DNA of 33,685 nt from Akkermansia muciniphila. Lineage in GTDB: Bacteria > Verrucomicrobiota > Verrucomicrobiia > Limisphaerales > SXQI01. This document shows positions 1 to 4,900 of this stretch, in pieces. Each line of letters begins with the position of its first letter. Within the stretch, counting starts at the first letter, position 1. Location of the stretch: positions 1-33,685 of the forward strand of contig CAMBHS010000011.1 in assembly GCA_945867235.1 (NCBI GenBank). Reading direction: 5' to 3'. The position numbers were made by a program, and so were the translations under genes. The notes below the pieces were generated by a model, which saw nothing but the letters and a program-made list of their open reading frames with translations, was not told the origin of the DNA and ran no database searches.

Positions 1-1047
1 ATTCAGCGCACCGGAGACGACGACGATCTTAAATGTGGAGCCCGGTTCGTAAACTTGTCCTATCGCTCGATTCAGTCGGTCGTGTTCCGTAGTTTTTGAG
101 AGATCGTTGGGATCAAAGGTGGGTAGATTGGCAAGGGCAAGCACTTCTCCCGTCTTGGGTCGAACCACGACAGCACAGATGCCGAGTGGGCGATGCTTTG
201 CCATTCCTTCGGCAAGTTCGGTTTCCACGATATACTGCACGCCTGCATCCAAAGCCAAAATTGCGTTGAGTCCTGCTTTGGGTTCCACGTCTTGATCACG
301 GAAGCGAACCAATTCCTCGCTGGAACGATTACGTTCCGTATTGCGCCATCCGTAAACACCACTCAGTCCCACATTGAGATAACTTTCCAATCCAGATTTG
401 CCGGTGGTGCCCGTCACGACACCTTGGGGCGTACGGTTGGTTCCCGTTCCCACGTAACCCAACACATGTGCCGCCAGAGTTCCGCTTGGATACACACGTT
501 CTTGGTCAGCCTCCGCCTGTAGGGCACTGCGTCGAATATAATTGAAGTAAACTTGTTTCTTTTTAGGGAGTTTTTTTTCGTCCGTCGCAAACACGAGGTT
601 GGTCATGGCTTGCTCCAATCGGTGCCATGTCGCCGCATCCACCTTGTGTTTGATCATCACATACTGATCAAATATCGGGGTTCCATCTGCTTTTTTTCGA
701 ATTTCCCGCGGCTTAAGTTTTTCTGCGAGTTCATGGACTGGTAGCTGTAAAATTGGTGCGATGGTTTGAGCCACGACGAGGTGATTCGTGTCAATAATAG
801 TGGGATCTGCTGAAATGTTGTAAACCGTTTGACTTGTGGCCAGCAGGGTGCCCCGAATGTCCTTGAGATCCCCACGCCGTGGGCCTCGTAATATGCGTCG
901 CTCAGTATTATTTGTTGCCGCTTTGCGAAGTTCCTCATGACGAAAAACCTGCAAATCAATCAACCGCCCGATTAGCAGGAGGAAAAAAAGGGCGAGCATG
1001 ATGGTGATAGCCATCAGTCGACCTTGTTTTCTTTCCGCGTTTCTCAT
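1..1047 (-). CDS. ftsI: Penicillin-binding protein / FtsI-type peptidoglycan transpeptidase, truncated by window start
   Basis: The minus strand translates from ATG at 1047 without stops to the window edge: MRNAERKQGRLMAITIMLALFFLLLIGRLIDLQVFRHEEL... ending ...NRAIGQVYEPGSTFKIVVVSGALN. N-terminal TM, PBP dimerisation region, and the 'EPGSTFK' active-site motif. dcw context downstream of rsmH and the ftsL-like gene. Confidence 0.93.
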   Translation of the reverse strand, partial: MRNAERKQGRLMAITIMLALFFLLLIGRLIDLQVFRHEELRKAATNNTERRILRGPRRGDLKDIRGTLLATSQTVYNISADPTIIDTNHLVVAQTIAPILQLPVHELAEKLKPREIRKKADGTPIFDQYVMIKHKVDAATWHRLEQAMTNLVFATDEKKLPKKKQVYFNYIRRSALQAEADQERVYPSGTLAAHVLGYVGTGTNRTPQGVVTGTTGKSGLESYLNVGLSGVYGWRNTERNRSSEELVRFRDQDVEPKAGLNAILALDAGVQYIVETELAEGMAKHRPLGICAVVVRPKTGEVLALANLPTFDPNDLSKTTEHDRLNRAIGQVYEPGSTFKIVVVSGALN

Positions 1048-1080: not shown

Positions 1081-1446
1081 TTATTTCTTGGCCGAGAATA
1101 TTCCGTGGCTGAGGGTTTGTAGTTCTTGAGGCCCATCAGGAAGGCGCACGATTTGATCCGGCTTGGGTTCGTTTAATCCCAGATTCATTCGTCGCATTTG
1201 AGTTTCAAGCTCACGCGTCGTACTCAATCTGGCACCTTCCCGTTGTAGGTTTTTCTCTCGGAATTTTAATTCCTCGATCCGGTTTTCTAACCCTTTAGTT
1301 TTTTTGCCTAATTGGTTGATTTGCTCCTTTTGCCACACATAACCCAATCCGGCGCAGGCGATCAGGGTGCAAACCATCAACACCATAATCACATCTAACC
1401 CGTGTGTTTTGCCGGCTTGAAATCTTTGTCGGTTTGGTCGTGGCAT
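1081..1446 (-). CDS. ftsL: FtsL-like cell division protein (short bitopic membrane protein with coiled coil)
   Basis: 121 aa, one TM (VIMVLMVCTLIACAGLGYVW) followed by a heptad-rich region; sits between rsmH and ftsI as ftsL does in dcw clusters. Confidence 0.65.
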   Translation of the reverse strand: MPRPNRQRFQAGKTHGLDVIMVLMVCTLIACAGLGYVWQKEQINQLGKKTKGLENRIEELKFREKNLQREGARLSTTRELETQMRRMNLGLNEPKPDQIVRLPDGPQELQTLSHGIFSAKK

Positions 1447-1468: not shown

Positions 1469-2404
1469 TCATACCAGTTTCGTTAGAACTCTGAGCTGGG
1501 CACTACGTGAACGTGGGTTTTTTATCAATTCTTCGGGGGATGGTGTAACGGCTTTCCGTTGCAACCACCTCGCTTCGATTGGTTTAGGAATGCGGAGTTC
1601 GGGCACGTCGACATCACCGGAGGTCACGTAATCTCGTTCTAATCGTCGCCCAAAGTCTTTCACCACTCGGTCTTCGAGCGAATGGAAGGTGATCACTGCG
1701 AGGTGCCCTCCAACCTTCAAAAGACTCCAAACCCCGGTGAGTCCACTACGGAGTGAACCCAGTTCGTCATTCACTTCCATCCGGAGTGCCTGAAATACCT
1801 GTGTTGCCGGATGGGTCTTTGCGCCTCGACGCGGTTTTGCTTTCTCCACCACCGCTGCCAACTGGATCGTCGTGCGAATAAGTCCGCTCGCCCGTGTTTC
1901 CACGATGGCTCGGGCAATTTTTCGTGATTCTCGTTCTCCGCCGAATTCCCAGAAGAGATTGGCTAATTCTTTCTCCTCATAAGAATTTGTAATGGTGGCC
2001 GCAGTCTTCTTTTGTTGAAGATCCATTCTCATATCCAACGGGCCTTCCTGTTGAAAACTGAATCCACGTTCGGCCTGATCCAATTGAGGGGAACTCGTGC
2101 CAAGATCTAAAATCACGCCATCGCAAGCCTCAGCCTGCACCCACCTCGGTAATTCGGTAAAATTTCCCTGCGATAAGGTCACCCTGTCTCCAAATCGGGC
2201 TAACCGTTCCGAGGTTGCCGAAAGGGCTCGCTCATCGCGGTCGCACCCAAAAAGTATTCCGTCAGGTCCGCTGGCCTCCAGAATGGCTTCAGCATGACCC
2301 CCGCCCCCTAGGGTTCCATCCACATACCATCCGTTTGTCGTTGGCTTGAGAGCTTCCACAACTTCTTTCAACATTACCGAACAATGCACAAACCCAAGTT
2401 TCAT
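1469..2404 (-). CDS. rsmH: 16S rRNA (cytosine1402-N4)-methyltransferase RsmH (MraW)
   Basis: 311 aa; HCSVMLKEVVEAL, YVDGTLGGGGHAEAIL, DLGTSSPQLDQAERGFSF, VITFHSLEDRVVK motifs typical of RsmH. Confidence 0.97.
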   Translation of the reverse strand: MKLGFVHCSVMLKEVVEALKPTTNGWYVDGTLGGGGHAEAILEASGPDGILFGCDRDERALSATSERLARFGDRVTLSQGNFTELPRWVQAEACDGVILDLGTSSPQLDQAERGFSFQQEGPLDMRMDLQQKKTAATITNSYEEKELANLFWEFGGERESRKIARAIVETRASGLIRTTIQLAAVVEKAKPRRGAKTHPATQVFQALRMEVNDELGSLRSGLTGVWSLLKVGGHLAVITFHSLEDRVVKDFGRRLERDYVTSGDVDVPELRIPKPIEARWLQRKAVTPSPEELIKNPRSRSAQLRVLTKLV

Positions 2405-2884: not shown

Positions 2885-3358
2885 TTAAATCAGCTTGAAG
2901 GCTTCGGAGGCGAGAGCGTCATCGACCACACTTGCTTGGTCATAGCGTTCGGGATTCCAAATTTCGAAACGGTCCCACGAACCGACCAGCACCGCTTCCT
3001 TGTCAATCCCAGCGGGTTTGGTGATCAGTTCAGGAAGGCAAATACGGCCACTTTTATCCAAGGTGACTTGGTCGGATTTTTTCCCCAGAAGACGGCGCAA
3101 AGAATCTGCCGTGGGATCAGAATAAGGCATGCTTTTTAGCTTCGCCACCAATGCCTGGAGAGGTTCGGGCGGGAGAACCAACAAATACGCATCGCGCTGG
3201 ATGCCATTGGGCCAAAGGATCACCGTGAACACCTCGTCGGGTACGGACCTCCACTTTGCCGGTATTTGCAGACGACGCTTGTCGTCTACCCCGTGCCGGT
3301 AGAGGGAATTATAGTAAACTGGCGTGATGTTCACTAAAGCAGACATAAAATGCAGCAT
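2885..3358 (-). CDS. mraZ: Transcriptional regulator MraZ (start revised; ATG at 3358 or 3346)
   Basis: YRHGVDDKRRLQIPAKWR and DQVTLDKSGRICLPELITKPAGIDKEAVLVGSWDRFEIWNPERY are duplicated SpoVT/AbrB-like MraZ repeats. The ORF-track start (GTG at 3403) lies inside the operator repeats, so a downstream ATG is preferred. Confidence 0.93.
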   Translation of the reverse strand: MLHFMSALVNITPVYYNSLYRHGVDDKRRLQIPAKWRSVPDEVFTVILWPNGIQRDAYLLVLPPEPLQALVAKLKSMPYSDPTADSLRRLLGKKSDQVTLDKSGRICLPELITKPAGIDKEAVLVGSWDRFEIWNPERYDQASVVDDALASEAFKLI

Positions 3359-3377: not shown

Positions 3378-3412
3378 CCCCACAACGCCCCAAAGTTACC
3401 CACTTCAACCCA
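3378..3412 (-). promoter_or_regulatory. MraZ-binding operator: four TGGGN boxes with 5-nt spacers
   Basis: Minus strand reads TGGGT-TGAAG-TGGGT-AACTT-TGGGG-CGTTG-TGGGG; boxes at 3408-3412, 3398-3402, 3388-3392 and 3378-3382. Matches the known MraZ box (TGGGN direct repeats with 5-nt spacer). Confidence 0.9.
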
Positions 3413-3823
3413 CTTCGGTCAATGGATAATTTGGAATTTTTACTGCTACTTATTCACATTTCTTGTGAAAAACATGTAAATAACTCAATCGTTTTGACTT
3501 TTGATTTGAAGGAACTCACCCAAAAGAATTAAACCAGAAAGCACCATTAATAGAATCGTAAACAACTCAAAAACAACATGTTATATGTTTTTATTGATTC
3601 AAAATTTAACCTAACAATGAGGGTTCACGATGATGGTGGCAGTGTTCGAATAAATAATGCCGATACGTAACGAATCTTTTTGGATACGGCATTCGCCAAG
3701 AAACCTAGGTTAGCGGTAGAAATTGAGGTTGAACGTAATTCCCCATTTCGACCCACATTCAATAACTTCAAGGGGCGTTGCGTTGGTGATTTCCATGCTT
3801 TAAACTTTCGCTTCTTGAATCGA

Positions 3824-4900
3824 TTGAAACTCAGTGACTTTAATTACAATCTGCCCCAACACCTGATCGCGCAGCACCCTGCTGAATGTCGGGAAGGATC
3901 ACGGTTACTGATTTACCATCGAACAAATGGGCTCATCCGCCATGCTAGATTCCTTGATCTTTTGGAGGAATTACGTTCTGGAGATTTGCTTGTAGTCAAC
4001 GATTCGCGTGTCATTCCGGCACGGTTAAGAGGCTCTAAACCGACCACGGGCGGTGCTTTTGAGGTCTTATTAATTGAGGAAATCAAAGAAAACGAATGGT
4101 GGGCCATGGTTCGCCCTTCCAAACGGTTGGTAATTGGTGGATGCATCGATTTACATCGACTCGATGGGACGAAAGCTGGCATCCAGGTTGAGTTATTAGA
4201 AAAAACAGACACGGGTCTATGTCGGCTTCAATTCCTTCTCGAACGCAACATTTTTGAAGTTTTACCGGAGTTAGGTGAAATACCGTTGCCGCCCTATATC
4301 AAAAGACCAAAGGGAAAGACTGGATCGCAGGATGTAGAGAGATATCAAACCGTTTATGCCCAAGTTAATGGTTCGGTGGCTGCTCCGACTGCTGGACTTC
4401 ATTTCACACCAACCATCCTCGACGATTTGAAAACTCGAGGGATCCGAGTTGCCCCTGTCACACTGCACGTTGGGGCAGGGACATTTGCTCCCGTGAAAGT
4501 TAGCGCAATTGAGGAGCATCAGATGCATTCGGAGCGGTTTTTTCTACCCATGGAAACATTAGCTGAGATTCAAAAGTGTCGGTTGGATGGAGGTCGAGTG
4601 GTGGCCGTTGGAACCACGTCGTTGCGGGTTCTTGAATCTGCCGCCAACATTGGCTTGGAACAAGCGGCCGGCCGGTGGCAACAAACTCAATTGTTTGTTT
4701 ATCCACCCCACGAATTTAGCCTGGTTGATGCTATGTTGACCAACTTTCATCTTCCCGAATCGACCTTGCTCATGCTCGTGAGTGCGTTCATCGATCCAGG
4801 TCGTGCCGAGGGCCGAGAGAAATGTTTGGCGGCCTATGAGGAAGCGATCCGACAAGGCTATCGTTTTTTTAGCTATGGTGATGCGATGTTCATTAGCTAA
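3824..4900 (+). CDS. queA: S-adenosylmethionine:tRNA ribosyltransferase-isomerase QueA (likely TTG start at 3824; ORF open from 3680)
   Basis: KLSDFNYNLPQHLIAQHPAECREGSRLL... VNGSVAAPTAGLHFTP... HVGAGTFAPVK... PHEFSLVDAMLTNFHLPESTLLMLVSAF. Family N-terminus (MKLSDFxYxLPxxLIAQxP) aligns to TTG 3824. Confidence 0.95.
   Translation: MKLSDFNYNLPQHLIAQHPAECREGSRLLIYHRTNGLIRHARFLDLLEELRSGDLLVVNDSRVIPARLRGSKPTTGGAFEVLLIEEIKENEWWAMVRPSKRLVIGGCIDLHRLDGTKAGIQVELLEKTDTGLCRLQFLLERNIFEVLPELGEIPLPPYIKRPKGKTGSQDVERYQTVYAQVNGSVAAPTAGLHFTPTILDDLKTRGIRVAPVTLHVGAGTFAPVKVSAIEEHQMHSERFFLPMETLAEIQKCRLDGGRVVAVGTTSLRVLESAANIGLEQAAGRWQQTQLFVYPPHEFSLVDAMLTNFHLPESTLLMLVSAFIDPGRAEGREKCLAAYEEAIRQGYRFFSYGDAMFIS

Follow-up and report, generated by a model that had tools for sequence, protein, structure and literature searches.

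A four-box MraZ operator stands directly upstream of mraZ in the stretch of DNA analysed here (33,685 nucleotides, hereafter the window), where it is predicted to cover the core promoter, and further upstream lies a DnaA-box-like element that is conserved in many relatives. We consider it probable that MraZ represses its own transcription at the core promoter and that DnaA, the less certain of the two participants, acts from an activator-like position. The operator alone is ordinary, and the novelty lies in its predicted placement over the core promoter and in the conserved partner element. An earlier note on this DNA had recognised the kind of operator, a judgement that stands, and had chosen the number of boxes as its special feature, a choice that does not; the placement and the upstream element had been overlooked.

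MraZ is a repressor of dcw transcription that acts by binding TGGGN direct repeats. On the minus strand, positions 3412-3378 of the window read TGGGT-TGAAG-TGGGT-AACTT-TGGGG-CGTTG-TGGGG, with TGGG starts exactly 10 bp apart (3412, 3402, 3392 and 3382), and the array lies about 33 bp upstream of mraZ. The boxes and the promoter elements proposed around them are as follows:

3417..3422, minus strand: predicted -35, TTGACC; TTGAC is conserved before box 1 in the class
3409..3412, minus strand: MraZ box 1 (TGGG), called on sequence and kept in relatives
3399..3402, minus strand: MraZ box 2 (TGGG), called on sequence, adjoining the predicted -10
3393..3398, minus strand: predicted -10, TAACTT, between boxes 2 and 3 after an 18-nt spacer; called on class-wide TATAAT-likeness
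3389..3392, minus strand: MraZ box 3 (TGGG), called on sequence
3379..3382, minus strand: MraZ box 4 (TGGG), called on sequence

The four boxes with 10-bp periodicity that the earlier note had described are thus borne out, and the arrangement is unique in the genome. With up to one mismatch allowed, TGGG-N6-TGGG-N6-TGGG occurs in the whole window at this site only, as two overlapping perfect matches, compared with an average of 0.25 matches in the shuffled window, and a four-box TGKG pattern at the same spacing has a single occurrence in the 2.7-Mb genome, namely this array, its reversed control giving no match. The search for further MraZ targets in the genome gave no regulon signal, two-box GTGGG matches numbering 7 vs 16 in the reversed control.

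The array heads the dcw cluster, with mraZ directly downstream, an arrangement that is kept in relatives. The surrounding genes are:

2885..3346, minus strand: mraZ, 153 aa (PF02381, E 7e-13), with an invariant Arg in the DDKRR loop
2447..2878, minus strand: small ORF, 143 aa, between mraZ and rsmH; kept in relatives, no Pfam match
1469..2404, minus strand: rsmH (mraW) (PF01795, E 1.6e-100)
1081..1446, minus strand: ORF in the ftsL position, named by position; no Pfam match
1..1047, minus strand: PBP in the ftsI position, cut by the contig end (PF03717 and PF00905)
3680..4900, plus strand: queA (Queuosine_synth), divergent, with an uncertain annotated start (PF02547, E 2.9e-125)

The start of mraZ was placed at the ATG at 3346, and not at the in-frame codons upstream of it, because the alignable start in relatives is ATGTCNG. 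Both the Arg and the Asp of DDKRR, a basic, DNA-contacting loop, are invariant in the MraZ alignment, and relatives of the protein in the PDB include 1n0e, 9qlr, 9sx6 and 9qlg. Across many families of the order, mraZ is directly followed by a homologue of the small ORF with the motifs LL..GKS..LLPKF and, at the C-terminus, V.RNDL.DAD; the ORF looks like an uncharacterised dcw gene.

Comparison drew on genomes of the order, the class and the phylum, and conservation was assessed in 49 mraZ upstream regions from the order and 150 from the class. With the period set to 10 bp, a four-box score of at least 14 out of 16 is reached by 23 of the 49 order regions, as compared with 0-1 regions at other periods and 0.03 in shuffles. 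About two thirds of the class regions (101/150) carry TTGAC together with the 10-bp array upstream of mraZ; in these arrays conservation of the T and of the two Gs after it is 88-97% for boxes 2-4, the last G of boxes 2 and 4 is frequently lost, and an A-rich AAAGTGG context is visible in the consensus. The earlier note had named the absence of the boxes from close relatives as evidence that would count against it, and the array is in fact kept upstream of mraZ in relatives. The 10-bp-specific periodicity, the class-wide conservation and the fixed position relative to the promoter and a cognate MraZ strongly support the identity of the site, and we regard the four boxes as a genuine and ordinary MraZ operator, a conclusion that is well supported by sequence comparison. 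That the boxes and their spacing are chance G-rich sequence, a reading that gains from the short length of each box and nothing more, deserves practically no credence in view of the period-specific conservation across the class and the uniqueness of the array in the genome.

A second alternative, that the G-rich array is mainly a G-quadruplex, has a precedent in the structure reported for the mraZ promoter of Staphylococcus aureus (PMC11796246), and the array of the window does fit G3-N7 four times. The canonical rule of four G3+ tracts with loops of 1-7 is satisfied by only 20 of the 101 class arrays, however, and what is kept is the T that precedes each G tract, along with the strict 10-bp phase, the last G often being lost. 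On conservation a G-quadruplex is ruled out as the main function, and we hold this reading to be very improbable.

Variation in the array was seen in several places. In family f56 (G153, G108 and G236), AGTGTA-type boxes with a period of about 10 bp appear to have taken the place of the usual array upstream of mraZ; these accompany a divergent MraZ, and a change of box specificity is possible. Variant boxes of the form (C/A)GGTAGAAAA replace TGGG upstream of mraZ in G010, G013, G043 and G049. No MraZ was detected in the four sampled genomes of family f61 (G123, G245, G248 and G315), each of which is 99% complete.

Four boxes are the usual number in the class, and four repeats with 10-bp spacing upstream of mraZ have also been reported for Burkholderia cenocepacia, where MraZ binds the fragment in an EMSA (PMC7761207). 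The idea that four boxes are an unusual feature is thereby ruled out, and the suggestion that they give tighter binding finds no support. The operator of the window resembles that of E. coli Pmra, as Eraso et al. 2014 is cited in PMC8475190 and PMC7761207, in having, just before mraZ, TGGGN direct repeats at 10-bp intervals, the E. coli dcw operon being repressed. It also shares a 10-bp repeat with the Mollicute site (AAAGTGK-N3)3, as given where Fisunov et al. 2016 is cited in PMC5282649, and the AAAGTGG context is common to that site and the class consensus; as cited there, the Mollicute site differs in having three repeats and a final base that is G or T.

Where the array departs from known operators is in its predicted relation to the promoter. 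The promoter calls rest on conservation, because a generic sigma-70 scan called no promoter at the array. The TTGAC motif stands 3-7 nt upstream of box 1 in the 101 class regions that have it (exactly 5 nt in 59 of them), and class-wide TATAAT-likeness peaks at spacers of 17-19, with a mean of 2.6 of 6 matches, as against 1.4-1.8 of 6 at spacers of 14-16 and 20. If these positions are correct, the array covers the core promoter, with boxes 1 and 2 filling the -35/-10 spacer, box 3 lying past the -10 and short of the predicted start, and box 4 falling just beyond that start. In E. coli K-12, by contrast, the sequence is TTGACA-N18-TAAACT-N8-TGGG, such that the three perfect boxes follow the -10, beginning 8 nt after TAAACT, whereas here four boxes run from 5 nt after TTGAC; the array is thus predicted to lie about 28 bp further upstream than its E. 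coli counterpart. The B. cenocepacia site, too, is reported to be downstream of the -10, overlapping the start site, and is described without a DnaA element (PMC7761207).

The partner element is found 27 nt upstream of TTGAC, where the 9-mer TGTGAATAA fits the DnaA-box consensus TTWTNCACA. Two such sequences were noted in the window:

3450..3458, minus strand: DnaA-box-like 9-mer TGTGAATAA (TTATTCACA on the other strand), a perfect DnaA-box match
3464..3472, minus strand: second DnaA-box-like 9-mer, TTTTTCACA, in opposite orientation; a TTWTNCACA match, weak

The second lies 5 nt from the first and was not seen as such in relatives. The first occurs in the sense orientation in 30 of the 49 order regions (shuffle mean 0.33, maximum 2) and in the antisense orientation in 2, and this near-constant mraZ direction makes it unlikely to be part of the promoter of the divergent gene. 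Its distance from TTGAC is restricted as well: in 33 of 36 class-sample cases it is 26-31 or 37-39; the other three are outliers, and the interval 32-36 is empty. A larger order sample behaved in the same way. The strict composite pattern was found in 51 of 194 order genomes (52 places; reversed control, 0), and the spacing count was made on 43 of these places after nine non-mraZ ones had been dropped by sequence and position; kept out of the count were one locus common to eight f25 genomes, G446:C63 and the G178 repeats. The gene was checked for part of the 43, and those present in other samples all lie upstream of mraZ. Distances of 26-31 (26 sites) and 36-40 (16 sites) account for 42 of the 43, the remaining one being 33. 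The two groups are one helical turn apart (Rayleigh R ~0.66, p ~1e-8, with relatedness ignored).

The order and family f58 (Opitutaceae-like, the family name being inferred) carry the element, most other families of the class do not, and it is missing in a third of the order members, including G001, which is of the same genus. In many copies a second half-site follows 11 bp on (TTTGAATAA), and this half-site is absent from the window and its two nearest relatives. An extra TGTGAATAA was seen downstream of the array, near the mraZ start codon, in G047, G014, G009, G025, G055 and G026, and closed f58 genomes likewise have a copy near the start of dnaA. Among the places away from mraZ, the locus shared by the eight f25 genomes (L258-L265) is conserved and has TGTGAATAAAAAAACCCGACTCGG and then TTGAC, and four places in G178:C1 (L076 and L085-L087) form a four-copy repeat with TGTGGATAA and TTGACAGAAATGGG that is probably a mobile element.

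Of 29 relatives, 20 have the same 9-mer upstream of dnaA as well, without exception in the dnaA direction, with 0.49 occurrences expected in total (in G000 the dnaA upstream region is itself cut by a contig end). It lies mostly 300-364 nt before the dnaA start in surroundings that resemble those of the mraZ element (TGTGAATAACTCGTGAACAA), and in two closed f58 genomes only about 30 nt separate it from the dnaA ATG downstream. Closed genome G145 (4.7 Mb) has only 7 copies of TGTGAATAA; two of them precede dnaA and one precedes mraZ. Tandem pairs of the 9-mer are found upstream of dnaA in some relatives, and head-to-tail pairs at 11 bp precede dnaA, mraZ and B12 ribonucleotide reductase; at L066 (G040:C508:8701-8720) such a DnaA-box-like pair stands upstream of an apparent vitamin B12-dependent ribonucleotide reductase. 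A further sequence common to relatives (L198-L226), GTTAATATGTTGTCCT, follows the TGTGAATAA pair about 300 nt before dnaA and is probably a dnaA promoter or origin element.

DnaA is a known transcription factor at dnaA, nrd and Caulobacter ftsZ and in the promoter region of Bacillus subtilis ftsL, and its autoregulation at the dnaA promoter is widespread (PMC8203912). The promoters described here are like the known DnaA-regulated ones in having DnaA-box-like sites before dnaA, a ribonucleotide reductase gene and a division operon, and unlike them in that a single element, conserved and in helical phase, precedes an mraZ promoter that MraZ would repress, an arrangement that the literature searched does not describe for Verrucomicrobiota. 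The DnaA boxes near E. coli ftsZ, which proved irrelevant (PMC8203912), call for caution against inferring function from boxes alone.

It may be that the array is a plain MraZ operator and that a different transcription factor binds TGTGAATAA and regulates dnaA and mraZ together. At the position where DnaA boxes tolerate variation the 9-mer shows almost none, the N of TTATNCACA being T in 35 of 36 class-sample copies; its orientation is fixed; and an oriC-like cluster of at least three perfect 9-mers was not found in two closed genomes, all of which would suit a factor other than DnaA. Against this stand the perfect match of TGTGAATAA to the DnaA-box consensus, the presence of the 9-mer in the promoter region of dnaA, a gene that DnaA widely autoregulates (PMC8203912), the head-to-tail copies at 11 bp, and the copy that precedes a ribonucleotide reductase gene, such genes being known DnaA targets. 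We think another factor unlikely, if worth bearing in mind, and lean with some reserve towards DnaA as the protein that acts at TGTGAATAA. The box-reading helix of DnaA is kept in relatives, reading GGRDHGTV wherever the motif was found (L198-L226, L228 and L233). The corresponding motif in E. coli is GGRDHTTV. This points to a lineage-wide T-to-G change (RDHGTV), with which a change in specificity is possible.

For a DnaA element so placed, the following mechanism may be proposed. The sequence itself, its conservation, the spacing and the occurrence of the element at dnaA too are observed, and the binding of MraZ and of DnaA, the promoter positions and the direction of the DnaA effect are what we infer from them. 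MraZ would repress its own operon through the four boxes, and with it mraZ, the small ORF, rsmH, ftsL, the PBP gene and onward; given what is established about MraZ, autoregulation of these downstream genes may reasonably be expected. An MraZ ring on one face of the helix would block RNA polymerase directly at the core promoter. Class I activators bind at about -70. DnaA at TGTGAATAA, likewise at about -70 and held to one face of the helix, would contact the polymerase and raise or time dcw transcription against MraZ repression, and the supply of division-gene products would thereby be tied to replication initiation.

Extended to the Verrucomicrobiota, for the order of the window and the Opitutaceae-like family, we put forward as a tentative proposal, somewhat short of an even bet, that the dcw promoter is a two-input node at which DnaA, from one or two fixed helical positions upstream, activates or times transcription and MraZ, bound across the core promoter, represses it. 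If this is true, the node, together with the same element at dnaA, would couple the supply of division proteins to replication initiation directly at the level of transcription, and the phased element at an MraZ-controlled dcw operon and at dnaA would offer a concrete and easily mutated test site in a little-studied phylum.
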